NCBI GenBank assembly: GCA_902728285.1 | Contig: CACVBU010001294.1 | Location: 2,078,483-2,142,482, forward strand | Length of the DNA: 64,000 bases | DNA from: Clytia hemisphaerica | Lineage: Eukaryota > Cnidaria > Hydrozoa > Leptothecata > Clytiidae | Direction: 5' to 3' | Translations under genes and position numbers: made by a program | Notes under the pieces: model-generated | Seen by the model: the letters and a program-made list of their open reading frames with translations, nothing else | The model's database searches: none | What the model was told of the DNA's origin: nothing | Shown: piece after piece, positions 8,036-59,300 of the stretch | Layout: every line of letters starts with the position of its first letter | How positions within the stretch are numbered: position 1 is the first letter of the stretch

Positions 8036-9459
8036 TCATTTCCCAAGAGATTTTATCAATTTTTTTGTGTCCTCGCTGCATTTAAAATGTTCACCAGGTT
8101 TTTCACCTTTATTGTTACGTAAAGTCAAATCTGCATCAAAATCAACCAAATACTCTAAAGTTTTTAGTTTATTGAAATATGCCGCCATGTGCAGGGGCGT
8201 GTCTTGGCGTACTGAATCGACAGCATTAATGATGGATGGATCTTTGATGTTTTGGTGTTTTGATAATGTTGTTAACATCGTAAGAGCTTCATCATCTGCA
8301 CCATGTATTACAATGCGATGGATTATATTTCGATCATAGATACCAACAACTGATATATCTTGATTATATTCTGGTAAAGAAGAATATTAACAGCTGTGAT
8401 TCAAAGTTAGAGCGAAAGTTAGAACATTTGGTTACGGTGCAGAAAATCATAGGTCCTGTGTGCGACTGATTGTCTAAAAATGTCGTATAGTTGATGCTCT
8501 CTAATTCGATTTTCCAGGGGAAAAGACTTTTTGTCGAATAAGGGAGCGCTTCGAATAGTAGAATGTCGTTCATGAGAGTTTCTTGTTGACGTTGACTTTT
8601 AATATTATTGAAGCGTATCGAATAGTAGAACGTCGAATAACACAGTGTCAACCGTATTTAAAAAAAAAGGCCGTGGGAAATACTATTCATGGTAAGAGAG
8701 AGCAACAGTGTAAAGGAAGTATTTGGCTACGGTGACAATAAGAGTTCAATTCCTGTTGGGTCTTACCAAGATCTTGTAGAAAAGTACTTGGACGGCTATA
8801 AAACAACTTCCCGAAGTACAGGTCTTCAGCATAACTAACCCAGTAACCCATTTAACAACGGACAATTTCAAAAATGAAAGTAATAAAACATTGTGGTTCA
8901 AATAAAAGGATGTGATATCAGTACATCAAAATTCCATCACACGGATAGTTGATTGACCAAAATAAAGCTCTAAAGGAGCGGGCCAATATATCCATCGGAG
9001 AGGAATGATATTTAACCTTTGATGTGTCGCATCCCCAGTTTGGTGTAACTACCCTTGCGCGTAAACTTGAAAAAATTTCGGTTGGACCCACCAATCGCGC
9101 CGAAAACGAGGGCTGGGGTTCATGCCTCTCGCTGCGGATTCCTTGACGCGGTCTGGCAAAATTCCGTAATTTAAATATTCTAGATGTTAAAAATTTTCCC
9201 GATCTTCAGAGCTTTATGGCGTGTCGGATAAAAATTTCTGCATCTTGGTGTCAAATAACCTACCAGCCAGTTTTGGAAAAGTTTCAGCCCATGTTCTGGA
9301 CCATGCGGACTCCATTAATAAAGTAGTTTTATTTCTTTTTGTTCGCAACGAATTGATCAAATGTGGATTGTGTTCCAGAAGTTCTTCAAATTTCTTGAAA
9401 TTGTCTTCAATTATCAAGTCGTCCACTTCTAAAAAAACGTTATTCAAGAAAACACTCAA
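8036..9459 (-). CDS. Ankyrin-repeat protein, 3' part (two exons, 5' end not resolved)
   Basis: Exon 9264-9459 (right edge approximate) splices through GTAGGT to exon 8036-8370 (acceptor TTTACCAG). The phase-1 junction forms a Glu codon. The last exon reads DTPLHMAAYFNKLKTLEYLV followed by DADLTLRNNKGEKPGEHF, a clear ankyrin repeat (TPLHMAA core), and ends KKLIKSLGK before a TGA. The upstream exon has more weakly repeat-like helices (FEELLEHNPHLINSLR, KTTLLMESA). There is no ATG in frame: the exon opens after an upstream TGA with no methionine, so at least one 5' exon lies further right. The intron (8371-9263) contains an ATTCGA-type MITE. The partner and cellular role are unknown. Confidence 0.75.
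8477..8656. mobile_element. TTGATGCTCTCTAATTC MITE, same family
   Basis: Left end TAGTTGATGCTCTCTAATTC and right end GTCGAATAACACAGTGTCAA are inverted relatives. It lies in the ankyrin-gene intron. Confidence 0.75.
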
Positions 9460-11776: not shown

Positions 11777-14700
11777 TCAATCCACATGTTCAGCTCTCAT
11801 TATGAGTCTTAGTTTTTCGATCAGAAATTTCTTGTCTTGACCAGCCTATAAGAAAATCACCAAATATCAAAAGAGTAGGGGACCTAATATTTTGAAAAGC
11901 AAAATTTGCTAAAATTTTACCCTAAAGAAAGCCTTTTTTAAATAAACAATTGACAGATGTCACGGAACTCCAGACTTGGCCCCCTACTAACATACGGTAA
12001 CTTAACATTTAGCACTACAAAGGCCACTGTGACAAGCATGTAAGACATTCTAGCATATAGGTCTTTTGCAAATAAACTTCTCAGTTGTTTTCACGGCATT
12101 AGCTCTCTTGAATTAGCCTAATTTTCAAGAAAACTGCGATCGCGCGATCGTTTCTACCCTAAAAAATCATTTTCAGTATTTGTCTATTTAAGTTGATGTA
12201 GAGCATTTAATGCACTTACCAATGCTAATTGCTGTTTCAGTAATTGAATTTTCTTTTCGTTTGATACTTTCCTCATTCGGAAGTAATATGATAACAGTCT
12301 AAAATAAAAGAGAAAACAATCTAGTATCATGGTCAAAATATATTAACAATTTAGTGTATTTTAACGTTTTCAGCATTCAAAGTTTGGGTGAGAATCGCTA
12401 TATTGCACTTTCACTTTCTTTCATTGAACATTTCGTTTTTGGAGGAGTTCAGTGGCTTTTAGGCTATATTCCAAGTCTTATTGGAGCAAACTTGAGCTTT
12501 TAAATCCTGAGATCCTAAGGTCCTATCGTGAAGTCGGGTAACTTGCATCAGTGGCTAAAATGGCTAAAATGCATAGCCCTCAAATTAATGACCTGGCTGG
12601 TCATTAAAATACAAAGTTAAATCAAAACAAAAATGGTAGAGTAGAGATGCGAGCGGAGCTGCGTAGTAGAAATTTTTCTGCTTTGATTGGTCAGCAGTTT
12701 GAGGGCTATGCATATTAGCCTCCACTAATGCAAGTTTCCCGACGAAGTCTCATGTTAAAACTCAGAGTTAAAAATCTACTTTCCAACTGCAGTTTAAGGC
12801 GCTTAAAAATCATTTGTGGTGTTTAAAATTTTGCAGAGAAATCCCCTTTGTCTCAAATATTTGATTGTAATAACCAGGATTTACTAAAAGACTCAGTCAC
12901 CTAAGCTTTCGTCTGATAACAAGCTTATCGAAATGATCCAGAGAGACATAATACTTTTGAAGTTAATTAATAAACCCCTGTGTCACAGAACCGGACGTGT
13001 GACCCTTTACCTACTGGAAGATTACCCATTTAAAAATCGATGGAGAAAAATTGCACTCCAAAACCATCCCCACTGATCCCTTTTGAGATTTCGGTAGAAA
13101 TTTCAGAAAGTTCCATCGGGGCTGTGAGACAGGGGTGTATTAATGTTAAACGATCTTTTCCCAGTTGCCTTTTTGAACATGTAAAAATCGACTCTTTGGA
13201 GCCAATTAAATTGCTGGGTTTTTTAAGCCACCGATATAAGGATGTGTGGTAAACTTACCCCATAAAGAACAGAATAGCAGCGATGACAGGTAAAGAAGAT
13301 AAAGAGTTGACTATTTTTCGGATAGTTGTTGGTGTTTCATTGATGATGTCAGAAACGATATCGTATATTCGTTCTTGACCTCTATGTAATAGTGAAAAAA
13401 ATAGAAGAAAGATTTACATCGGGGTGTTAAGGTCCCTTTTCTTTATGCTATTAAAACTTAATTAGTCTTACTATTTGTCTTTCTAAGAAGGAGGATCCCA
13501 AGCCGGGTCAAACCAAAAACTTTGAAAAATTATATTTGAATAGAATAAGAATAACTCGAGGAAAACCTTCGGATGAATAGCTAAAGGTGAAGGAAGAGGG
13601 GCTTTCTTGTGGCTCCCGAATGAGGTGACAAACTTTAATAAAGAAGCTTTTATTATTTTCTGAGGATTGCGTTACGAAATAATTTCCGAGTTAACATAAT
13701 AGATTTTGTGGGAAGGAAGCACTGAGCGAAAAGAAATTTCTTCTGACTGACATCAATTTTAGACAAATTCAAATCGAAATTTTTTACCTGAAAGGACCAC
13801 ATATTGTCGATGGTTTTAATCTAGAATGAGAAAAATAAATTCACAAAAATTTGATTCCAAACATAGATTTCTTTAAAGCCCGAAGGGCTTAGATATCGTG
13901 TTTTAAGCTCTTCCAAGAAAAAAAAGTGAATATCACAAAAAATATTGCTGCTATTGTTTTCGAAAACCTACGAAGCTTCTTATTGGTCAAGCGCTGAAAT
14001 TCTATTCTAATGTCATGTGACCTAGGTAGGATTTCCTATCTAGCACGACATCTGTCCCTTCGGGCTTTATAGAATTATGATTCAAAATTGGCTGACTGTA
14101 TGAACGTCAGTTGAACGTTGTGTCCGTTGCAATCACGCATCTCGATTATTTGACAGGAAGAAGATTTCTAGTAACGACGGTTGTCGTCTGAAAAATGCAC
14201 AAAGATGGCGGAAAAAATTCAGGAAAATAATCAAAAATCACCATCAATAAACGACTTTTGCAGCCCGTCAAAGTGCATCATAAATGAAGAAAACGCACCA
14301 AAAGATACCCTACAATGCAGGAAGTGCCACCGTTTAGTCCATTATCTTTGTACAGAACTGCCACTTTACCAAATCCAGATATGCTTGTCATACAAATCAA
14401 GAAGTTTCCAGTGTCAAAACTGTACCAAAATCGCACCACATGTAATGGAAAGGTATAATTCAAATGAAACATCAAAAATTGAAGGATTCAAAAACGAAAT
14501 CAAAGCCTGTGAGAATATAATGAAAAGGCAGGACGAAGAAATAAACCATTTGAAAGCACAGGACGTCGATGTTATGGTCAACGAAATGAAAGAAACTATT
14601 GACACCAGAATAACCACGCTTGAAAAGAAGATTGAAAACATCATCGAAAAGAAAGAAGAGGAAAGACCACCAATGAGCTACGCTAAAATCACATCCAAAC

Positions 14701-17700
14701 AGATCGAGAAAAACATTGGAGATGCAATTCGAAAAGAGAAGCAGGAGGAGCAGCTGATTCGATCGACAGCACGCAACCTAATTTTTCATGGGATAGATGA
14801 ATCGACAGATGAATCTGAAGAAGAAACGAAAATCAAGGACGAAGAATTTATCCATGAGAAAATTATTGGTAAGCGGCTCCATCTGAGGAATATAAAGATT
14901 ACCGAGACGCAGCGGATCGGGAAATTTACGAAAGAAAGAGAAGATAAAGCGAGATACCGACCAATCAAAGTCATATTTACGAACGAAGAGGACAAGAACA
15001 CAGTGTTGCAAGCAATAACAAGTGATACTTTTATGGACCTACCTGGTTATGCATTTAACACATTTATAATTGATATCTACGTGACGTGACCGTTAAACAA
15101 TCATTCAGAACACAAATAGTGACGATAAAATTAGTCGTTTGTTTCTTATAAAAAAAACGTGCATGCTCTTGAAATATTCTTTTAGATTAAAGACTTTGTG
15201 AGCAAAAAAAACATCTATCTCATAAAAAAATTGAGTAATTTGACTAAGAACATTGATGTATGCTTATTAATAGTGGTTCTTATAGATAAACATGCGTTTT
15301 TTCAGCCAACAAAATTTTTTTGCAAAAATATGCTTGCTTATTTTTTTTCTTCGAAAATCGGGTTCCGTCACATTTCGGCCATTACCATTTTGCACCTTTG
15401 TACCAAAAATCAAAAAATTCCTATGATTCGATCCCGAGAAAAGTTGGTAACAGACGGACGGACGGACGGACGAACACAGGTTAATTTATAGGACCTCCAG
15501 GTAGGTCCAACAAAAGCAAAAGGCTTTCCTTACCGAGTGACAGAGGACTAGACCAAAAATAAAAGACAAAAATAATCAAAGAATGGTGTAAGGAAGCCGA
15601 AAAAATGAATGCTAAAATCAAAGGAGATAACACAAAATGGAAAGTCCGGGGGAGCCCGCGAAAAAAACTCTATTTCAAAAAGTTCATTGTAAAAAGTACG
15701 AGCAGTTTATAGAGGTCCATGTGTCTTCACGGTGGCCTGCATAACTGTAAAGCTTTATTATTATTATAGTAAGTAGTAAGTCTGCTTTTCGATTCACTTT
15801 GGGAGAAACTCAATGAGCAAATAATCTTTCGGTTATTCGAGCTCCCATATATTCGAAATTTTAGATGTTCAAACTTTTATTGTTCGAATTCTTTATATTA
15901 AAGTTTATTAAGGGACAGTTTAGTTGCTTTCAGTTATTCGAAGTAAATATTTCTATCGTCAAACATCGAAAAGCTAGGAGTCTCCGACCTATTCCCCGTG
16001 TATCCCAGGCTTTATTTACGTTACTGATTGACGCCAGCGTCAAAAAGCTGATAATAGCGAGGCTAAGCAAGTGTTTATTTAGACCGTTCAATGCAATATC
16101 ATAGGCCTGTACATAAGATTTCACTTGCATGGTTTGCTTTGGCAAGTTATGTACAGGCCTACGGTATCGCACTTTACGGTCAAAATAAATCCGCGCTTAA
16201 CCTCGCTAATATGCAGGGAACGAGGTTGGGAAGTCTTTTAAAGAATATGATATCTGTGGTTGAATTTCACTTACGTTTCGTCATCCATCATGATGTAACC
16301 AATGACAACCAGAGCTAGCATCAACATTAATGACAGTAAACAAAGAAACCATAGCAACATCTTGGACGCTTTGAAAGGACGAGTAGATGGTCTACAATTC
16401 CTTACTACGCTTACCTAAACGAAACAATCACAATTAATAATTATCTTTTCGCCTCTGTTGTTTGGAAGCTTGCACTGAAAACCATGAAGAGACTATTTTT
16501 GTTTTAAAGATAAGCTCGTTCATCCACTTTTTCAGTGGTCAAAGAAAAGTCTTTCATCTTGTTGGTCACCATGACTGGTCGACGAACGACTCTTCGGACA
16601 ACCACACCTTGGTCGTCCTTGACGACAAAAAACAGACTCAACACGATAAATTAGCCCAGATTCTCAATATTTGACTGCTCTTTTTTTCTAAATTCTAAAG
16701 GGCGTAAAAGCCTCTTTTTATACTTTACTGAGACGAATCCGTTTGAGACAGATGAACTGTGAACATTGCTTCATTAAAACGAAGATCTGATGTTTCCATT
16801 GTGGTGCTATGCGCACTGGAAGCAAAAATGAGCAATTTCAATTACAGAGGGATTTAAAAATATATCAAAATATGGATTAAAGAAAACATAACAAAGAAAC
16901 GAGGCTTACTGGAATAATGTTTTATACACCCAGTTAATCCGTTCTTACCTTTTTGACATAGAAAGTGATGAACAATTTTAAGACATTGATGAAAGGTAGT
17001 AAAGGACAATAGAATGTTCCAAGCCTGAATTGGTGATGAAGAATAGACAATTATAATTAGCATTAGAATTAGACCAGAATATAGTCTGACAGTCAAATAT
17101 AAACGTTATGATCAAGAATAGCATATCCCCCAAGGATTTTGAACAAAAATAGCTAACAAATATATGTGAAATATCTTTAGAGAGAGAAAGCGAAATAATA
17201 AACTTTTGGCTCAGACTACTCTAACAGAAAACTTCCTTTCGTGAAGACCAAATTTCATAACAGTGTTTGAAAATAATCTACAATATATATGTAAGCCCCC
17301 CTTTAAACTATCCCCTTTATAAATTATCCCCCCTTCCTTCCTATCCCCCTTTTTCATTTTTTCGGAAGGTGCCATCCCCCCTTAAGAAAGGAGGGAAACA
17401 ATTATTGTAGTAAGTAGCTCAGCCGATACCACAAAATTTCCCTTGAATGTACGTTTTGGATGTTATGAACGCTAGATAGATGTTGTTTCAATTTTCTGCG
17501 CACCGTCTATTGGTTGAACAAGTCACGACTCTTGACATTAATCCACCTGGCACAAATAATCTTAAAACAACGTATATCCATTGGTCTATTTGGTGACAGG
17601 AAAATTATCCCCCGGAATCCCCCTAGGAAATTGCTCCCCCATAGATTTCCAACTGGTAAAATTGGATGGGCACAATTCCCGGGGGCAAACTTTCTAGAGT

Positions 17701-26700: not shown

Positions 26701-29700
26701 GATGATACTAAAAACTTCGAACTTAGTTCAAAAATAGTACTTGATGCCTCTCTGCTTGATAATCATCAATTGATCGATAGCGATCGTAGTGCAGTGGTAG
26801 AGCATTCGGCTACGGTGCGCAAGGTTGTGGGTTCAACCCCCAGCCAGGTCATACCGAAAATTCCCTACTTGATGTTCAGCAATTAAGAGAAGAATCAAGG
26901 GTAAGTGGAGAAATCCAGGGAGAAAGAGTGGCACCCTCTCCTACCTTCTGGAGGATAGCTATCGAAAGAGGAGCCTTCGGGTCGCATCCGACTGCGGTCG
27001 CAGACTTAGATACTAGCAATTGAGAGATGGATCAAGGGTTATGGAGAAACTAAGTCGGAAGAGTGGAAGTCTTACTAACCTGCTCTAGCAAGGGTATGTA
27101 TTTTTCTCAGCTCAGTGGAAGGTAGTGATTTCTTGAGGCCAGCCTCGAAAAGTTCTTCCTCTGTTTGTCCATCATCTTCATCTTCAATTTGTCTGTTGAG
27201 GTAATCTTCCTCTAAGTCTTCAGGTTGATATTGAGCGAAACTGTCGTATTCAATGCCTTCAAATGATGGGTTATCTATGAAAGAAATGATTACATATTGC
27301 TAAAAGATTTGGTACTTGAAAGAGCAGAACGATCCATTTAAGTTTGTATTCCATGGACTTTGAAGGCTATTCTTCAAAATATGACATAACCTTTGGATTT
27401 CATAAAAGCTTCAAAAACACCCCTCTGTATCTTTTTCATACACCAGTGTGGAAATGATGTAAAGTCCACGCCAAATTGTTATTTGTTAAAACTGAGGTCT
27501 ACACCGAAAAAAGTTCTGTTTGCGGAACAGCGAAATTTGCAGGAGGGGGTTTTGGGGGAGCTGCAAGCCCCCCCTTCAAACGGGTCCAGGGCTTAGCTCT
27601 GGTGGGGGGGGGGGGGGTTCAGGGGGCAAAGCTCCCCGAAAGCCCTGGGATATTTGATTTTCTCACCCCTAAAAGTTGCTCAAATAAGCTTTATATTCTA
27701 TTTACACTCTAGGTCGTTATATGACGGTTAAGGTCGAGCAACCCTCCTTACGCCAATACCCCAAAGTTTTCCTTTACCAGTATGAATGACATTATGAAAA
27801 TACATTGGAAAGAAATTTGATCATATTCTAGAACTCTTATTAAAACGATAATTTTAATTTTAAAGGTAGTTATCAAAAAAATTATCTGTTCTTATCAAGG
27901 CATGTTTAAGTCGCGTTGAATAATAAAAAAAATAATAAACATATACAGAGGTAAGACAATTACAAATTAGAATCATTTTAAGTTGTGAGCAGGTTGGAAA
28001 ATGTTAATTTTCCTTTAACAACACTGATTTTATCTAAGACTACATATAGCAGGGTATCATAAAAGGTATCATATTCCTGATAAAAGCATTGGCTGTAGTA
28101 ATAATTCAGAGAGATAGATGCAGGGTCTACAGCTTGGTTGAAATGGAAAAATAGGCGAATAAATAAAACATGGGATGGAAAATCTTCTAAAAATGATGGG
28201 AAAGGGGAGGAGGAGGGTTTAAGGGTTTTATGGAAGGAAGGAGAACAAACCTGGTACAGATTGCTTTTTCAGAGGTGCTCTTTCTGATTCAGAAGAATCT
28301 GAAATACTTGTATATCGTCTACTTGACATTTTCTGTCAAAACATTGTCAAACAATCAGCTTGAACATTCTTTACTGTTTGAATTCAACTAAACGTTATGA
28401 TATTCAGTACATGTCAAACATGAATTTCGTGTGAAGTAAAACCATCCTTTTTAAATGAAAGCTTTTTCGATTAAGATATCATAACAACATGGTGTCTTAG
28501 CTTTTTTTATGTACACATGACTCCTTTTTTGTAAATTTCAGATTATATGTTCACATAAACTAATCTTGCTGAGCACCATGGGCTATTATGAAAATAAGTG
28601 AATTTATATCAAAGTTTGGAAAAGTATCACAAGGCAGCTGAAAAATATCTTTTTATATCGATATTGAAAAAATGAAGACTTGAAAAATGAATTTTCAACT
28701 TCGAACATTTAATTCTATCATATCTTGATAAAAGAAACTAAAAAGAGAAAAACTGTAACAAAAATAAAACTCCCTCTATTTCAACATCTCAAAATGATCA
28801 AGTCTAAAACAAGAATCCATTTAAAACAACTTTGAAATGTCAATTTACTAAATAGTGATCAGACATATTTTTGCATTGTAAATCACTCACCACTGACAAT
28901 CAAAAAACCTCATCTAAACACTTTTATCGTGGCAATATATCAATTTCCTAAATGACATATGTAATTACTCAGGAAGTATTCTGAAACAGATTTATTTACT
29001 CATTAACTTTGATAATTAAGTAAACTTGTGTGTAAAGAAATATCATATAAACAGCACTATTGCGACTTGTTATTTAATGCCGGATAAGTTAAGAAAATTT
29101 TGTAGTCTATCAGCATGAAATATTAAGAAAAAGGAAAATGAAAAGTTAAAAATCTATGACTTATAATAAAATGATAATTTGCCAATCTTACTGGTTGAAA
29201 TGACATACATAATTTGCTGATAGTTAGAATTGCTAGCACAACTTGAACAATCAAGAGCCTTTTAATTTTAATCATAAACTTTACCTCGGCTTAAATCCAT
29301 ATCATAACTTGCATGGTCTGTTTTGCCAGGCCTTGACATTTCAACCTGTTACAAAAACCTCTGATAAACTTAATACATAAAAGATTTTTCAGACAAGTTG
29401 ATGCTTTCTGAATTTTCAGATCAAATATAAACTTTCCTTAAAGATTTTTAAATTTGTTGATCACACAATGTGAAAATCTGAATGAATGGTAAGGCCATGT
29501 TGTAAATCAAATTTCTATTGAGAAAATCAGTTTCTTAGATTTTAGCATTCCATTATTTTTCTTTTTAAAACTTGAATGTTCATTTAGAACTGAATACTTG
29601 TTACTGCACAACATGAGAAGCTCATTCAATATTCAGAAAAAATCTTCACAAAGGATAAACTGGATATAAATTATGTCTCAATTAGAATCTGCAGTGGAGA

Positions 29701-32700
29701 AAAAAAAGCTATAAATTTTGATAGAATTCAAATTAGATACTGTATGCTTTTTTCGTTTAAGTTTAAAAGATAATGATTAGTGGACCCAAATATTATCAAA
29801 TTGAAAAAAGTCAAAAACATTTGGAAAGTAAGGATAAGGAATTATTTCTTTCCACAGTGATGATGTCCTAAGATCAAAGAAACACAATAAGCATGGTTGT
29901 TGGCGTGGTTTTTAGTTCTTCATTTTTATCTTTGTCAATTTTTTTTCTATTTTACAACAAAATGGAAAGGCCGCAATGAGGGTTTAATCACCAGCTTGTT
30001 ATTTTTTAAAAAATGTCAGAAACCTAAAAAGCCAAGTCCCTCATAAAAAAACTTGATGTGAATCCATACTGAACTGATCTTAAAAACTAAGGTATATAGT
30101 TTAAATATCTTGTAAATATATTAAAATGCAGGTTTGACTTTTTCACTCTGTTGGCCATTGAAATCTTTTTGCAAAATTTCCACCCACAATCCAAATATTT
30201 TAAGTTGACAAAGATCAATATCAAAATTGATGCTGTCTGACCAGTGGACCAGAAACGAAAATATTTTTTAGGTATGCTAGAAGAGAATTTTTTTTTCAAC
30301 CTTCAATTCTTATGTTAAAAAAGGTACCAAGATTTACCTTTGGATGCAGCCAGCCATAGTTAAAACTTTAAAAGTGATACAACTTGCTACCATAAATTAG
30401 ACTAATGTTGACACCCCTTCTAATCCAGTAGCCCTTCCTTAGGGATGAGAAAGATTGAAAACAAAAAGGTGGGTGGAATCTCTGGCTGTTGCAACTAAGG
30501 AATCTTCCTATCTTCTTTTATTCATAATATTGTATGAATGAATTGCGCTAAATCTGTATTGTGGTTGTTTACAAAACCACGGTATGTCCCGCAAATATTT
30601 AAACATGTGCACCATACTAAAGACTTTCTTTTTTTTTTAATTATGTTAATTATCACCATTGGCATTGCCTACAAGTCTTTCTTCACTTTGCCCACATCAA
30701 GTTTTTAAGAGGTCAACACATTCCAATGAATTTAGTTTTGCAAATAGTCCTTTAGAAGATGTCATTACGATTTTTATTTGATGTTTACTCCACCTACTTC
30801 ATTTCCATTTTCACCCATGTCCTCAAACCGTGCACAAAATGGTATCGTAAGTTGGTCTAATGTCAACATCTGTCTTCTATTTTCGACACCCTTCTTTGGA
30901 GAATAGAAAAGTCAGAGTTGCTAATTGAAACTAATCAGCTAATTGTCTTTGCTTAACGTTCAAAGAAGGAACCAGGGTGTCAAAATTAGAAAGCGGATGT
31001 TGACATTAAACCAACTTACAGTATAGCTGCGGAAAATCATTTTCAATGGAAGTTGTTTATGTTTTTACAATGTGTAGTAACATGTGTAGAAACATGTGAC
31101 TGGTTGATATCTGGTCTGTATTTTCACTTACTGTTAAATCTCTTTGACAACAAATTTGTTTTCATAACTCCACCAAGTCTATCAATAATACCTTTTCGTT
31201 CCTTTCAGAGTGCACAGACACTCGCGTGTGTTCCACTACGGATTTTTTTCATATCTTTGATTTAAAAGCCTACTCAGTGCGAAAGAGAAATCATGTATTT
31301 TTAAATATGCCGTTCTTTAACTCAAATCAAAATGACTTTGGAGGTTCGGTGAAATGGTGGCCGAGTTACTGTCCCATGTTTTATCAGATAGTCCCTAGAG
31401 CAGTCAACGGTTATTGACAGAAAATCCTTTGTTTGATTGTCAATGATGACAGTGCCATTATTAATTTTGTTAGATATGACAAATTGATGTTTGTGAGTGC
31501 ACTATAGTTTTAATTCCCATTGAAGAATCATATTCTGGTTTTCGTAGATGGTGTTTCAGCTTTAGTAGAGCTCGCCTGCCTGTAGATGACTGATGTTGTT
31601 TTTTCTGAAAGCTTGATTTCCTTGCGTGACTAACTGTCAACTAAGCTTTAGTACACTGAACAGAATAAAAGAAAATATAAAACATATAAAAAGAAACTGA
31701 CCTTCAGCAGAGCCTCTCTTCCTACCAAAAAAGCTCATCCTCAATCTTCTTACACATCTACAAATTTCAAATCTATTTGAAAATGTGTTACTCAGCCATA
31801 GTAAAAGTTAAGTTAACTTTATCTGCTGATTTTAATAATAAAAAGCTGATAAACTCCTACGATAGTACATGAACCTCATAATAAAATCAACTTTTTTACC
31901 ACACTCCTTTCTTTTCATAGAATTACAGAGATATTAAAATAAACATAAATCTAAAGAAAAGGTCAGATAAAAATTATAAAGGAATTGGTAATCCACAAAA
32001 GATAAAAAGAATTAAAACTCATAATAAAATGGTTAGTCAATATTGATAAAAACAAAAAATCAATCTCAGCTAAACAGTGTACCCTATCTTCCCAAGATGT
32101 TTGACAAATTTGGAGTGTTTTTGTTTTAGCGCGTAATATTGATATGACCTCGTTTTGAAACGAATTTTCTTAGAATTTTAACTGTGTTGTGTAGCAATCT
32201 CTTCTGTATGGCGCGAAAGATTTCAAGTCTAAACCGATCAGATTGATTTGATTGTGGTTAAGTTAAAGGAACTTTTAGATTGTTTTCGGTACATGTTTTT
32301 TATAAGCATAACTCTTATAAGTATATGAAGGCTCAGTTTTGCAGAATTCCTACGCATAACATAAGCATATAAATGTCAGCCTGGAATCCCGGGGGGGGGG
32401 CACTCGATCTGAAAACGACCATACGTTCGGCCCAAAATTTGGCTTCTAAAATCGGACCCTTACAGTGCAGTGAATTTCCATGAAAAATCATACCCTAACA
32501 GTGCACTTTTTCAAAATTTCTCGCCCGTAAGGGCGAAAATTTTTGCAATTTTCCAAGAAAATGTGGAAATTTTCCTCCAAAATTGACCAATTTAGTGCCA
32601 ATTTTACAAAAAAATTGGCCTTTTATCACAATTTCCTACCCTTACAGTGCAGTTCAGTGCAGTTTTGTAATTTCCTACCCTTACAGTGCACTAGCTGAAC

Positions 32701-33618
32701 TATGAAAAACCTACCCTTAAGGGCCGAACGTCTGGCAGGTCATTTACCTTGACGAGTGCCCCCCCCCCCGGGCCTGGAATATTTTTCAAGTTGTCAAAAA
32801 AAGACATTCCACGGCTAGCTACATTCCAATGCTCCCAAAATCTGAACAAATTTTTACAAAATTTCTGAAATTTAACTAAAAACTTGCCTCGGGTGAATCA
32901 TAAGCATAAGCTATGCCTGGATGCTTTAAGAACTTAAGCCTACACGAGCCTGACCAAGAGGGGCATACACTTGCTTATAAAAAAACATGTAGCGTAGGTA
33001 AGTGACTGACTTTTCCAGAAAATTTCAGTCATTTTTTCCGGTATAATCCGCCGCATGAGAGAAGAAAAATGTTTTTTGTCTAAATGAAAACCCTGTGTTT
33101 ACTTGATTGGAAAGTGCTTTACTTTCATTGCCGTAGGTAGAGTAGGGTCTGTTGTCATTGTCTTTTCTGGTTTGAGATTTTCCAAACCAACCGCTGCGAT
33201 GGAGTGCTGTTGGAGTTTGGCGAGAAATCGGAGGCGATACAAGAGAAAATGGCCGTCAGAATTGTCAGTGAATTAAAATTGATGAGTAAGCAAACGATAT
33301 CACTCTTATTTAAAAACAAAACCTTTTAGAATAACACTTTTCATTTTGACCATCGTGATATGAAATTAGAAAAGTGATCACTTTTTTACAGAGAGGTTGG
33401 GAATTAAACTTAGTGTTAGTGTCCATTTATCTTCCTTTTTCCTCGTTCCATATACCCGGGAAATAAGAGATTGTCTCTGATATTGTATAAAAAGTTTACA
33501 ATAGATATTTAGATGATAAAGACCTACCTAATTCACCAGATGTTTCCAGGTCTTCTCTTTCACCAAATCGGTTGGTTTGACAATCAGAAGATGACGGCGG
33601 TGAATATTTACTGCTCAT
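11777..33618 (-). CDS. Transmembrane channel-like (TMC) protein, with alternative start exons
   Basis: TMC proteins are multi-pass channels; some members are linked to mechanotransduction. Body exons: 27080-27274, 26063-26149, 24974-25118, 24779-24851, 23496-23577, 22578-22756, 21660-21796, 21033-21183, 20635-20787, 19825-19985, 19095-19167, 18514-18632, 18195-18287, 16949-17024, 16275-16414, 13259-13381, 12220-12298, 11777-11845. All phases agree. With the 33528-33618 start exon the product is 741 aa. Family marks: FGTGVLSYFTFLRWLLYIN near residue 225, FSSKVFCAWDYGICNKETA near 350, LLPAITMSVINLIVPSGF near 450, KCWENFIGQAFYKL (the CWE-GQ TMC signature) near 517, NVLNLIY then WLGTFYCPLLPFINVLKLF near 570-600, RPFKASKM near 615 and GQDKKFLIEKL near the C terminus. 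The N-terminal about 170 residues are acidic and low-complexity. Which TMC subfamily it belongs to is not resolved. Confidence 0.93.
12350..12870. repeat. Repeat also found uninterrupted at 40467-40753
   Basis: Shared phrases: GTGTATTTTAACGTTTT, TCTTTCATTGAA, GGCTATATTCCAAG, AATCCTGA, CTACTTTCCAACTG. Here it is split by the 12524-12756 MITE. Confidence 0.85.
12524..12756. mobile_element. AACTTGCATYAGTGG MITE inserted in an older repeat
   Basis: GAAGTCGGGTAACTTGCATC at the left and GATGCAAGTTTCCCGACGAAGTC-type sequence at the right are inverted. The flanks join seamlessly as at 40467-40753 (GGTCC then AAAACTCAGAG). Downstream of TMC exon 13259-13381 in the next intron. Confidence 0.85.
12974..13136. 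mobile_element. ACCCCTGTGTCACAG MITE, second copy
   Basis: A 163-bp element with ends ACCCCTGTGTCACAG and CTGTGAGACAGGGGT, the same family as 42801-43080. ATTAAT occurs close to both ends. It lies in a TMC intron; the ORF 13040-13252 is a shadow. Confidence 0.75.
13874..14072. mobile_element. TAAAGCCCGAAGGG MITE, related copy
   Basis: TAAAGCCCGAAGGG at the left is inverted as CCCTTCGGGCTTTA at the right, about 200 bp. The TAGGATTTCCTATC block near its right end resembles the same position in 34285-34970. The target duplication is unclear. It lies in the TMC intron 13382-16274, left of the LINE ORF. Confidence 0.75.
14205..15712 (+). pseudogene. LINE-type ORF1 (PHD-like finger, coiled coil, RNA-binding-like), interrupted
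   Basis: From ATG 14205 (MAEKIQENNQ) the frame holds a Cys/His finger near residues 20-75 (CRKCHRLVHYLCTELP, FQCQNC), then a long Lys/Glu coiled coil, then ARNLIFHGIDES and TQRIGKF, typical of non-LTR ORF1 RNA-binding regions. At about 15017 an insertion of roughly 490 bp breaks the frame. The C-terminal part resumes at 15514 (FPYRVTED ... WKVRGSPRKKLYFKK) and stops at 15710-15712, but it carries a TAG after TED and a frameshift before IKEWCKEAEK. No reverse transcriptase follows; a short (TTA) tail ends near 15765. The copy lies in the TMC intron 13382-16274 on the opposite strand. Confidence 0.8.
15017..15513. mobile_element. Insertion in the LINE ORF1, with 13-bp inverted repeats
   Basis: TGGACCTACCTGG at 15034-15046 is exactly inverted at 15497-15509. 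AACAA flanks both sides (15017-15021 and 15509-15513), and removing one AACAA plus the insert makes the ORF1 frame continuous. The interior has an AT-rich unit and a GACG microsatellite at 15455-15472. A related tandem array lies at 46905-48400. The superfamily is unknown. Confidence 0.7.
16052..16211. mobile_element. AATAGCGAGG foldback MITE
   Basis: AATAGCGAGGCTAAGC ... CATAGGCCTGTACATAA is mirrored by TTATGTACAGGCCTACGG ... GCGCTTAACCTCGCTAATA. About 160 bp, 64 bp 3' of TMC exon 16275-16414. Confidence 0.82.
17930..18180 (-). mobile_element. SINE family A, 5'-truncated
   Basis: It matches the body and tail of the full copies (GGGTACCATTACTCTGATA region through the ATCTATCTATTTTTT tail) but lacks the tRNA head. 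Its truncated end is 14 bp from the TMC exon 18195-18287 splice donor. Confidence 0.85.
18514..18632 (-). CDS. TMC exon carrying the CWE-GQ signature
   Basis: It encodes REVRQEKCWENFIGQAFYKL and then a hydrophobic stretch ending FFEEFIRK. The Cys-Trp-Glu...Gly-Gln block is the diagnostic TMC domain motif. The acceptor TCTCTAG is at 18633 and the donor is GTAGGT; phases are 0 in and 2 out, and the exon links cleanly to 18195-18287. Confidence 0.93.
19381..19551. mobile_element. CATGTTTTTTTATAAGCAT MITE with a TA TSD
   Basis: A 171-bp element with inverted ends CATGTTTTTTTATAAGCAT / ATGCTTATAAAAAAAACATG and flanking TA. It is the same family as 32292-32989 but uninterrupted. It lies in a TMC intron. 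Confidence 0.88.
20025..20268. mobile_element. AGGCCGGTCTCCACTT MITE with a TAA TSD (PIF/Harbinger-like)
   Basis: A 244-bp element with ends AGGCCGGTCTCCACTTGCGC and its near-inverse, flanked by TAA (20022-20024, 20269-20271). The TAA-type 3-bp target is characteristic of PIF/Harbinger. It lies in a TMC intron, 39 bp right of exon 19825-19985. Confidence 0.88.
21429..21515. mobile_element. TTGACTCTCTCTAATTC MITE fragment
   Basis: ACTGTTGACTCTCTCTAATTC opens the copy and an AAATTATGGAGAGTA remnant closes it. It is short and degenerate. TMC intron. Confidence 0.6.
22180..22286. mobile_element. TTGACACTCTTTAGTCC MITE, short copy
   Basis: Left end ATTGACACTCTTTAGTC and right end GTCGAATTAGAGATAGTC, with the internal ATCGAATA phrase of the family. 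TMC intron. Confidence 0.65.
24119..24358. mobile_element. GACCATGTTCACACGTTAC MITE
   Basis: Left end GACCATGTTCACACGTTACT and right end GGAACCGTAACGCCTGAGCA are inverted relatives. The internal CGAAACCGTTTTGATC block matches 44427-44905. TMC intron. Confidence 0.75.
24456..24593. mobile_element. AATGACCGG foldback MITE
   Basis: ACAATAATGACCGGTT and TCGGGCTGTACTGAAAATAT are inverted on the right (AATATTTCTCAGTACAGCCC ... AACCGGTCATTATTGT). About 140 bp with almost no unpaired centre. TMC intron. Confidence 0.85.
24974..25118 (-). CDS. TMC exon with two candidate donors (GT at 24973, GC at 25000)
   Basis: The exon encodes NTLEVEDVFLSDDLMVEP... through LQHKRSV. Two donors in the same phase follow: AG|GCAAGT, ending the exon at 25001, and AA|GTAAGT, ending it at 24974. 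They are 27 nt apart, so the choice adds or removes nine residues without a frameshift (741 or 732 aa). The next exon (24779-24851) supplies the third base: R with the GC donor, K with the GT donor. The GC site fits the strong consensus expected of real GC-AG introns. Confidence 0.75.
25139..25350. mobile_element. ACTTTAATCCGATT MITE rich in TTTCGCGA
   Basis: ACTTTAATCCGATTAA at the left is inverted as TTTAATCCGATTGAAGT-type sequence at the right, with TTTCGCGA blocks inside both arms. It lies just upstream of TMC exon 24974-25118. Similar TTTCGCG-rich DNA lies at 23605-23890. Confidence 0.7.
25706..26035. mobile_element. CCCCGGGG element with AGTGGTA arms
   Basis: AGTGGTACGACCCCGGGG at the left is loosely inverted at the right (CCCCGGGGACC...TACTACCACT). 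The interior has repeated TAGGGTCAC and GGGTACC blocks. No clean target duplication. It resembles, but is not clearly the same as, the 8-bp-TSD CCCGGGGG family. Confidence 0.6.
26660..27058 (+). mobile_element. tRNA-derived SINE (family B), with a second partial head
   Basis: The main head at about 26780-26860 has TAGTGCAGTGGTAGAGC (A box) and GGGTTCAACCCCC (B box). A related partial head with GGTTCAAACCCGG lies at about 26663-26710. The body continues through CACCCTCTCCTACC. It ends about 20 bp from the TMC exon 27080-27274 donor. The acceptor-stem arms do not pair, so it is not a tRNA gene. Confidence 0.75.
28251..28329 (-). CDS. TMC alternative start exon D
   Basis: This 79-nt coding segment (MSSRRYTSISDSSESERAP... 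ending VP plus a phase-1 G) is followed by GTTTGT. A TTTTGACAG acceptor lies directly upstream; inclusion from an upstream phase-1 exon gives an in-frame TAG. It is the start nearest to the common body. It is Ser-rich, like exon A, and may carry phosphorylation sites (inference). The predicted protein is 737 aa. Confidence 0.6.
29285..29339 (-). CDS. TMC alternative start exon C
   Basis: This 55-nt coding segment (MSRPGKTDHASYDMDLSR plus a phase-1 G) is followed by GTAAAG. A TTTTTGTAACAG acceptor lies 6 nt upstream of the ATG; entering through it from another phase-1 exon gives an immediate TGA. The predicted protein is 729 aa. Confidence 0.6.
30846..31022. mobile_element. GTAAGTTGGTCTAATG MITE
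   Basis: GTAAGTTGGTCTAATGTCAA at the left is inverted as TTGACATTAAACCAACTTAC at the right. A half copy lies at about 18328-18400, and a GACTAATGTTGACA fragment near 30400. It lies between TMC start exons B and C. Confidence 0.82.
31702..31738 (-). CDS. TMC alternative start exon B
   Basis: This 37-nt coding segment (MSFFGRKRGSAE plus a phase-1 G) is followed by GTCAGT. An acceptor-like TTTGTAG lies about 17 nt upstream of the ATG, but splicing start exon A into it would hit an in-frame stop. It therefore fits an alternative start rather than an internal cassette. The predicted protein is 723 aa. Confidence 0.6.
32292..32989. mobile_element. CATGTTTTTTATAAGCA MITE with a TA TSD
   Basis: CATGTTTTTTATAAGCA at the left is inverted as TGCTTATAAAAAAACATG at the right, and TA flanks both ends (32290-32291, 32990-32991). 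It is interrupted by the hAT-like MITE 32388-32772 and lies in the TMC 5' intron. It is Tc1/mariner-like by TSD. Confidence 0.85.
32388..32772. mobile_element. CCCGGGGG-ended MITE with an 8-bp TSD (hAT-like)
   Basis: The terminal CCCGGGGG...CACTCG is inverted at the right end (CGAGTGCCCC...CCCGGG). CCTGGAAT is duplicated at 32380-32387 and 32773-32780. The ACCCTTACAGTGCA blocks match 53577-53900. It is nested in the 32292-32989 MITE. Confidence 0.9.
33528..33618 (-). CDS. TMC alternative start exon A
   Basis: It begins ATG AGC AGT (MSSKYSPPSSSDCQ...), ends ...SGEL with a phase-1 G before GTAGGT, and is 91 nt long. It joins the common exon at 27274, whose first two bases (AT) complete an Asp codon. 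A pyrimidine-rich acceptor-like CAG lies 9 nt upstream of the ATG, so the exon may have spliced 5' UTR attached. It is the most distal start of the gene. Confidence 0.7.
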
Positions 33619-34284
33619 TTGTCTTTGCTGGTCAAGCAAGAAACGCAAAAGGGGTTAAAAACGAAAGTAAGTCGAATGAACGTTGATATTAGTATGTGTG
33701 TGTATTACTCGAATCAAAGGTTTTGAATCCGAATTCAAACCGATTCAAACCTCATTGCAATCAAATGTAAAATGGCTCGGTAAAAGATATCTTTCGTTCA
33801 TAGTTCACTCTACAAAATATTGCCCAAACTCATCGTTCATGAAAAAGTATCAAAATCAAAATATTGCAAGCAAAGTGTTTTATTATAAAAACGAATTTAT
33901 ACATGAAATTAGACACCCGTCGAGAGCAATTCGAAACATAAGCTTTACCAATCACTCAATGATAAAAAATAAGCTTAGTCTTGCGTATTTGACAATCTTT
34001 TCTCAGCAACGCAAAAAGCACTGTTTGCTTTGAATATTGATATTAATTAAATTTAACATCAAAATTAGGAGAATAATATGAATAACTCAAGTTTAGTTTG
34101 TTCCTTCCTTTAACTTTAATTTCCGATATTAAAAACAAATAAACGAATAACAATAAGGCAAAGAATGGATACAGTTAGGACTTTGGAGCCTTTAAGCTGT
34201 CTGTAATTTGAGTCATGCTTGAATTCGGTTTCCTGATTCGGTCTCTTTTAAAATTTGTCCGTTAAGCGTCAAGTGGGTTTTACC

Positions 34285-56300: not shown

Positions 56301-59300
56301 AATTTATCTCACATGGCATTGGTTGGCCCAGGCGAAGGTATATTCACTAGCCAAGTGAATCACAGCACTGCGAGTGGGAATCGAACCCCTACCTCCTACT
56401 TACAATAGTCGTTTCTGGCCTGACAGCTGAAGATGTCATAGATGTAAAACGCACTATTGGTATAATAGACTAATAGGAATATTCCAGAAATATTTCACGT
56501 TCAACGGCCAATTTTGGATGTAGAAACCGGCCCTGTAGACTCAGGTAGACTTACACTAACGAAGCATAGAAGTTCAACGATGGAAATAATTGATTAGAAA
56601 AAGATATTTTTATATTTATAAAACATTATAACTGTATCGTGCACTTTTTGAATGTTTGCTTCACAATCTAGAATTGAAAGTTTTCTAAGAAAACTTTGGA
56701 ATTCAAACAACGAAATCACACCTCTCATCGACAGTTTTGAGAACCCCTCCTTCACTGCCAGACGTCATCACTTGTAGCAGTTTGAAAGTCTGTTGAAACA
56801 TTTGGAAGAGGAATGATTCGTATTCTGCGGGGATGAACTTCTTTGATAGGATCTCGTTGATGCAACTCATAGCATTGATACCTAGAAAAAGAGGAAAAGT
56901 ATAATTCTATTGACTTATTCAAAGTCTAACCATGACCAACATTAAAGTATATTTCTTATCCACAAAGCATTCTATTTGCTTATTCTGGGAAAGACGTCCT
57001 TTCTGACCAATACATTTGTTTCAGTTGAGGAAAACCTCTGAATCGTGTTCCCATACTTAATTGTTTATAATAGAGCACATGTTGTTTACTCCGTACATTA
57101 CGGTCCGAAAACTATATTGTCGACTATTGCTCATCAATATATTGTGTAGTCTAAGTAGCCCTAAATTGTTAGAAATTTTATTACTTCTGTGGTCCTGAGA
57201 GGATTATAATTTTCAAATTGTTAATTTTAGCTGAAAATAAGGAGATTCAATGGAGATGCATACGAGCAGCGTCTGCGAAATGGGAGAATATGGATAATAT
57301 CGATTTTCAGAATTTCAATTCAGATATCCCAGATTATAAAAACATTTTGAAGGCTGAAATTTGTCAAAACTTTTCTAGTTATTACTCTAAACTGTTAACG
57401 AAAAGCCTGAAAATCTAAGAATCTTTAAAGTAAATGTCTACTGACCTACTTTCGTCCCAATCACTTTATCTGAACCTTTCATGACAGCTAGATTACATCC
57501 GTATTCTGCGTAGTTGAAAATCTTTGTCACAAGGCTGGGCGTAATGAAACGTGAAAGTGGCAACCAAGAAATATATTGTGTTAAACAGTCAAAAATCGCT
57601 ATACAAAGCTCCTCTGACTGAGCTGACATGACGACGGCCTCAATCTTTTGCGGCGACGTGGTGGAGCCGGGAACAGTGAGACGGTGTATGGGTGAATGGT
57701 TGGGCGTGGTGTAGGGTGAGCGTTGTATAGGCGAGGGCGGTGGTGTAACTGTGCTGACGATATGTTTAAACTTGTGTGATATAGATGTGAGTAGTTCTGT
57801 TAAAATGTGTAGTGCATTGGGAATATGTTGTAATAAGGATTCTTTCAGTTCTTGTCGCCGTTGCATGCTCAAGTCTTCCCTGGGTGAGATGAATTCTTCT
57901 GAGATCATTTGTAGAGCTAGTACACCAACCAAGGATGTGTCAGGATTTTGCAAAAGCTAGAATTAAGAAAAATGTAAACATTTTAGATTTTCAGCAGCTG
58001 CATTCTATTGTGGTATTCAAAATCAGCCATGAATAGAATGCCATTTTGGAAGAACCTTACTGTAAAGTACCCAGCAAAAAACTCTTGTTTTAGTTGAAAG
58101 ATAACACCAATTACCGTATAAAATCATTCAGTATTTGAATGGCACTCCCTCTTTACTCTCCAGTAAAGCTAGAAGCCTATTCCAAAACTAGCGTATCTCC
58201 TTAAAACAGCTCCATAAACATTGACTATACCCAGGTGTTGCAACTAGCTTATGTGAATATGCACGGAAATCTTGGAAAATCGTTGAATTGGTGTGTCATT
58301 TGACCATAAACCCTCTTAATAACAAAACGGAAGTTGTGTATTTTGTTTCTCGAATATCTTTAAAAAATCTTGAACCCTTTCAGAAAATTCGGTCCCAACA
58401 TTTAAACTTACTTTGATTATATTCGAGAAGAAGTTTGGATAAAACATTGGCCAATCATAACGTCCGATGATGACCACTGATTTGATGGATTTGTTACGGA
58501 TAAAAGGTGGCACTGCATTATACTTATTGACCATGTAATTGTAAAGAAATTTACGAATCTGTTGTTTGTCTTCACCCAGTAGACCATGCCATCTCTGATT
58601 TATAAGGTTCTAAAAAAACAAACAAAAAATTATACAATTCTTTATGATTGAGTGGAGCAGTAGTTTTCACAAAGTGTAGACTAAGGCTGGAAGAACTGTA
58701 GGATTTGAATATTTCCTAACTTAGTGACAAGGCCCATGTTGTTCCTACACTAATTCTTGATAGATAATAATAACATATGCCACCAGCTTTTCAAATTGTC
58801 CTTCTCAAGAATTTTGAGTATATGGTTACTAGCCAAAATATCAATTATTCAATCCAGGGATACACAGGTCAAATTTATATTTTTGAGATCTATAATAAAA
58901 ATAAAAATACCTCAAAAATACTGAAAGAATACATCTGAACATATTGATTGGACGACTTGGTCAAGAAATAGATACACTGTCTCCATGCTCCGTCTTGTAA
59001 ACCAAAATTATTCAAAAGTTCTTCTGGTAAAAGAAACATTAGAAATTTAGTGGTTTATGGTCATTTTGTCAAGCAAAGTAAAGATAAACTTCAATTTGAA
59101 TCCCGAGTGAGGAAGTTATACCTGATAAAAGTATTCTATTTTGAAAACTTTCAAATGGTATCATATTATGTGATATTGCATGAATACGAATATGAGATTT
59201 TGGCCCTAAGGACTTTGCTGTTCAAAAGTGGATATTCCAACTAGAGGCATTTCAGGTTTTTTTCTTGAGCATATCACATAGAAAGAGAAAGTATGGACAA

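Follow-up and report, generated by a model that had tools for sequence, protein, structure and literature searches.

The DNA analysed here is a 64,000-nt stretch of the Clytia hemisphaerica genome (hereafter the window), the minus strand of which carries a TMC channel gene whose 15 modelled exons run from 27274 to 16275 and are joined in frame at GT-AG sites. The exons were picked by a small script and then corrected by hand. The first of them, which is common to all the forms considered below (27080..27274, minus strand; DNPSFEGIEYD...), is entered through the acceptor TTTCTTTCATAG and has phase 1 at both its start and its end. It is followed on the same strand by three exons with little or no homology support (26149-26063, 25118-24974 and 24851-24779) and then by modelled exons at 23577-23496, 22756-22578, 21796-21660, 21183-21033, 20787-20635, 19985-19825, 19167-19095, 18632-18514, 18287-18195, 17024-16949 and 16414-16275. 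When begun with the most upstream of the start segments (the A form), the model is 651 residues long and matches the Pfam TMC family (PF07810) at 7.3e-39 and, among solved structures, TMC protein 1 (7usw) at 2e-41 and TMC protein 2 (8tkp) at 2.1e-33, which we take to be C. elegans TMC-1 and TMC-2. The alignment to 7usw covers model residues 202-509 and 514-647. These matches confirm an earlier note on this DNA that had called the body a TMC channel. Because homology to the solved TMCs starts only at model residues 182-202, the first four modelled exons (27274 to 24779) are supported by reading frame and splice sites instead. Model residues 343-387 align to the TMC1 peptide of 6wud, presumably its CIB-binding peptide, far from the variable tail. 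The model ends at 16275, with plausible further C-terminal exons at about 13.3 kb.

Several other features surround this gene. Opposite its 3' part lies a 304-aa plus-strand ORF (14178-15089) that matches the PHD finger weakly (0.00014, short of the Pfam cut-off) and is probably a LINE-type ORF1, and an ankyrin-repeat exon at 8039-8386 on the minus strand (Ank_4, 3.5e-9) belongs to another gene near the window start. Upstream of the TMC gene and on the same strand is an exportin-like gene at about 38276-59502 (Pfam Xpo1, 1.2e-10, at 57441-57956), whose ORFs, we presume, resemble XPO6; its ends were read by eye, and its outermost ORFs are without a Pfam match. It appears to end about 4.7 kb before the first TMC start segment, a gap far wider than that of a Hydra operon, reported as under 417 nt (PMC3273482), and we therefore set aside an operon of the two genes.

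Between the exportin-like gene and the common exon, the earlier note had described four minus-strand segments opening with ATG at 33618, 31738, 29339 and 28329, encoding N termini of 30, 12, 18 and 26 residues and each ending in a single phase-1 G before a GT donor. They are present exactly as described, and the terminal G of each is in phase with the acceptor at 27274; we call them A, B, C and D in this order. The coding segment of A (33618-33528; MSSKYSPPSSSDCQTNRFGEREDLETSGEL) ends at the donor GTAGGT, 9 nt before which is a second, weaker donor, GTGAAT. With its leader, exon A spans 33528..33627: the acceptor TTGCTTGACCAG is followed by a 9-nt leader and then the ATG. Exon C has the same layout (29285..29345), with the acceptor TTTTTGTAACAG (score 1.07), a 6-nt leader and the coding segment 29339-29285 (MSRPGKTDHASYDMDLSR) closing at the donor GTAAAG, as does exon D (28251..28332), with the acceptor ATGTTTTGACAG, a 3-nt leader and the coding segment 28329-28251 (MSSRRYTSISDSSESERAPLKKQSVP) closing at GTTTGT. 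Exons A, C and D thus probably begin at acceptors 9, 6 and 3 nt before their own ATGs. Candidate B (31738-31702; MSFFGRKRGSAE; donor GTCAGT) is doubtful, because splice-site scoring found no usable acceptor upstream of its ATG and because its start is overlapped by an 11-codon uORF in another frame (MCKKIEDELFW, 31757-31722, minus strand), the ATG of which lies upstream at 31757. On a generic animal scale the donors of A, B, C and D score 4.7, 4.5, 3.1 and 2.5 (2.46 for D), inside the range of the other modelled donors of the TMC gene, and the donor of D, GTTTGT after CAG, is also used by the body exon 26149-26063. The coding score is slightly negative for D and negative for B. Two further upstream segments were considered as a fifth start exon and set aside: 35534-35501 on the minus strand (MDIDETLFASW, 11 aa, phase 1, donor 4.9) has no acceptor, and 34969-34930 has an acceptor at -10 and a weak donor. 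Thus, the sequence gives good support to three of the earlier note's four starts (A, C and D), each with an acceptor and a serine as residue 2, and the fourth, B, is doubtful.

The joins among these segments constrain how they could be used. If the AGs in the 60 nt before any of the four ATGs are used for phase-1 entry, a stop is met every time, and the five explicit joins (A to C, A to D, B to C, B to D and C to D) are all broken by stops, which bears out the in-frame stops reported before. Since joining two start exons gives a stop, each mRNA would carry one N terminus. Mutually exclusive starts, as against cassettes, remain the best interpretation of A, C and D, but the stop rule proposed in their favour bars phase-1 feeding only: the acceptor offsets of 9, 6 and 3 nt are all multiples of three, and these exons therefore read through without a stop under phase-0 entry.

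If exons A, C and D start at 3' splice sites, as is probable, they must be joined to a leader, which would come either from trans-splicing or from an exon farther upstream. The acceptor-like sites, which had been invoked only as a test for cassettes, point at these three exons to a spliced leader or a common 5' leader exon, and not to ordinary first exons with the ATG at their very start. We favor, with a probability of roughly 0.6, the reading that A, C and D, and possibly B, are alternative coding start exons lying behind 3' splice sites, most likely spliced-leader acceptors, that feed the common acceptor at 27274. We infer that the locus is transcribed and that these acceptors are used: a trans-spliced leader would be added at the acceptor of A, C or D, the phase-1 donor of the chosen start exon would then be cis-spliced to 27274, and the resulting mRNA would consist of leader, start exon and common body, with one N terminus each. 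The product would be a single channel whose N-terminal tail is interchangeable and 18-30 (or, with B, 12) residues long.

Spliced-leader addition is favored by what is reported of hydrozoan trans-splicing, by the placement of acceptors in other genes and by the upstream ATGs that the acceptors would remove. Spliced leaders and spliced-leader genes are reported from Hydractinia (PMC11067881), and for Hydra the share of genes that may be trans-spliced is put at a minimum of 67-94%, where earlier estimates stood at about one-third (PMC7986045). In a set of 30 7TM receptor ORFs (long-exon ORFs with the first ATG taken as the start, a few of them near-duplicates), an acceptor lies within 2-12 nt of the first ATG in 7 and within 2-40 nt in 17, as compared with 5.9% and 20.5%, respectively, of the 2,097 ATGs of the window. 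Use of the predicted acceptors would also eliminate an upstream ATG at -39 of C and those at -15 and -38 of D. A single Hydra leader pattern gave one match versus one in the control; as this is not above control, a spliced-leader RNA gene is not identified here, and at the gathering score Rfam has no match in the window.

The best-surviving alternative dispenses with the spliced leader: a single upstream promoter would drive a non-coding 5' exon that is cis-spliced to one of the mutually exclusive AUG-bearing exons A, C or D. The acceptors of these exons are as expected under such an arrangement, the approximately 4.7 kb separating A from the apparent end of the exportin-like gene leaves room for a leader exon, and introns in 5' UTRs would account equally well for the acceptors near the 7TM receptor starts. 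However, a separate leader exon becomes unnecessary if, as is common for hydrozoan mRNAs, a spliced leader is carried, and we regard this alternative as unlikely. Trans-splicing may itself operate on the output of one promoter upstream of A, with a single pre-mRNA in which the choice among the acceptors of A, C and D selects the N terminus and everything upstream of the chosen site is discarded as outron; we hold this particular version of the spliced-leader reading to be rather improbable too. Were it correct, alternative trans-splicing would act as a protein-diversifying switch for a channel of the mechanosensory type in an animal.

A different objection is that there is one true start, A or D, and that the other segments are chance ATG-to-GT intervals in AT-rich introns. 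Its force can be gauged from a comparison of the target region (27275-34200, 6,926 nt) with 272,484 nt of control strand, made up of the window minus its 15-36 kb minus strand, together with both strands of the paralog loci L018-L026, candidates being defined as an ATG followed by 12-35 codons and a phase-1 donor. Splice scores derive from splice-site frequencies that are generic for animals and come from background knowledge, and cut-offs of 2.4 for donors and 1.0 for acceptors were set after A-D had been seen, just below the donor of D and the acceptor of C, so that the probabilities that follow are approximate. Counted bare, the target holds 4 candidates versus 0.86 expected at a donor score of at least 2.4 (P 0.012), 4 versus 2.34 at 1 or more (P 0.21), and 5 versus 3.53 at 0 or more (P 0.28). 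The opposite strand of the region yields the same number of bare candidates (5 and 5, at a donor score of at least 2 and a limit of 60 codons), Markov-shuffled versions of the region contain 1.7 at a donor score of at least 2, and a further bare segment lies upstream at 35534-35501. An ATG with a phase-1 donor is by itself weak evidence, and these bare frequencies speak for the objection.

What sets A, C and D apart are two features that lay outside the selection by which the segments had been noticed, namely, a nearby acceptor and a serine at residue 2. At the donor cut-off of 2.4, Ser2 is present in 4/4 target candidates versus 3/34 in the control (13/135 when all phases are counted), and an acceptor scoring at least 1 lies 2-15 nt upstream in 3/4 versus 0/34 (9/135). 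The combination is seen in 3/4 target candidates and in none of the control candidates, be it among the 34 of phase 1 or the 135 of all phases. It survives the loosest cut-offs (donor 0, acceptor 0), with 3/5 versus 8/476, and with the acceptor cut-off at 0 the three compare with 0.08 expected at donor 0 and 0.05 at donor 1. None of the phase-1 candidates of the opposite strand has either the acceptor or Ser2. A scan blind to ATGs, which counted open acceptor-to-donor intervals per acceptor and phase pair, points in the same direction: the number of intervals is not in excess (7 in the target versus 6.0 expected), yet 3 of the 7 target intervals, namely A, C and D, have Met-Ser among their first five residues, versus 1 of 236 in the control. 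A, C and D thus stand out from chance by the near acceptor and Ser2, and B is without the acceptor; against this pattern a single true start amid chance segments appears quite unlikely.

The least tenable alternative treats A, C and D as internal, mutually exclusive cassettes, entered in phase 0 and left in phase 1 behind an upstream phase-0 coding exon, with the methionine internal; the offsets of 9, 6 and 3 nt would permit this, and phase-0 candidate segments do lie upstream (e.g., 35560-35501 and 34580-34500), but none of these is convincing, and Met-Ser within the first five residues of 3/3 exons, versus 1/236 control intervals, fits start codons far better, making internal cassettes very improbable.

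Relatives of the start exons were sought elsewhere in the genome. A protein search of the Clytia genome with the first common exon returned the window's own copy only, and in a DNA search with 26800-34200 as query, for which the best 40 of 14,089 first-look candidates were scored and weak copies could be missed, no second copy of A-D or of the common exon is among the matches listed. The matches listed outside the window, most of them to a repeat at about 32384-32776, all miss the start exons and the common exon, and we accordingly rejected an origin of the start exons by duplication or from a transposable element. Other TMC genes (C340, C310; loci L018-L026) match several body exons, and no match to them was found for the common or start exons at E 1e-3. 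The repeat, about 390 bp long, lies between A and B, is flanked by C/G runs and has at least 39 further genome copies at 95-98% identity, so it is a young, abundant element. Elsewhere in the assembly, the mitochondrial contig has what we recognize as the order nad4-cob-cox1, with TGA read as Trp, an order typical of the Hydroidolina. A tandem repeat with a unit of about 6.2 kb, in which successive 5S genes are mostly spaced by about 6.0-6.2 kb, was seen on another contig (C212; L059, G000:C212:203200-209700); its reading frames we take to be H1, H2A, H2B, H3 and H4, Rfam places 5S, U1 and U2 in the unit, and ARAGORN reports no tRNA in it. It is like the 5,998-bp repeat of Hydractinia echinata, which includes an Arg-tRNA as well and whose constellation its authors call not previously described (PMC5011920). 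In the Clytia unit the Arg-tRNA is either absent or missed. A search for members of the GFP family gave no match, and as its controls were equally silent, this is no sign of their absence.

Returning to alternative starts behind spliced-leader acceptors, the tails that they would provide are short and probably disordered, and they differ in composition. That of A (30 residues) is acidic, with 3 Lys or Arg, 6 Asp or Glu and 10 Ser, Thr or Tyr; that of B (12 residues) is short and basic, with 3, 1 and 2 residues of these kinds; that of C (18 residues) is neutral, with 3, 3 and 5; and that of D (26 residues) is basic and Ser-rich, with 5, 3 and 10. The N terminus of TMC proteins is cytoplasmic, as established for the family. 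The tails may differ in function, and we infer a possible role in targeting, partner binding or control by phosphorylation. TMC proteins are candidates for the pore that serves hearing and touch, and little is known of what their cytoplasmic N termini do. If one cnidarian TMC carries several interchangeable N termini, the contribution of the tail could be tested directly, for instance with respect to targeting in stinging cells. One paper (PMC10463417) refers to work on TMC-1/2 in the cnidocytes of Clytia. For cnidarian TMC genes, alternative starts are not described in the best-ranked open-licence papers.

The closest precedent is mouse Tmc1, for which two coding starts are described (TMC1A/TMC1B, Tmc1ex1/ex2), about five residues apart, MPPKKV and ML, and used at about 95:5 (PMC7554986, PMC7920537). 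The Tmc1ex2 form is reported to go untranslated in a heterologous system on account of a uORF and a weak Kozak context (PMC7554986), and both start forms are reported to rescue the transducer current, such that the difference between them is expected to be minor (PMC7920537). Therefore, different tails need not mean different function. The two cases are alike in that a TMC gene has alternative coding start exons on one body, with the N terminus as the sole difference, and the uORF overlapping B resembles the hindrance at Tmc1ex2. They differ in that mouse has two starts, whereas the hydrozoan gene would have three or four, which encode N termini of 12-30 residues and of which three lie behind acceptors. 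With respect to mechanism, alternative trans-splicing is reported to yield different proteins from C. elegans sma-9 (PMC2904332), and the account of trypanosome alternative trans-splicing (ALT-TS) finds protein diversification unsupported as its general function (PMC6821157). Both resemble the arrangement favored here in that the leader is added at different 3' splice sites of one gene, resulting in different 5' ends and coding starts. However, sma-9 and ALT-TS give shorter or shifted products of one transcript, whereas each predicted acceptor of the TMC gene would carry its own ATG exon, cis-spliced to a common body. Should the acceptors indeed prove to receive a spliced leader, this gene would offer a clear case for testing the diversification of proteins by alternative trans-splicing. 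A row of first coding exons, one per mRNA, joined to constant exons is also the organization of UGT1A and the clustered protocadherins. Those genes have large variable exons that specify entire domains, unlike the 12-30 residues seen here, and an acceptor just upstream of each is foreign to their pattern. More generally, alternative first exons are a common kind of arrangement; the set described here is larger than that of mouse Tmc1 and is tied to what are probably spliced-leader acceptors.
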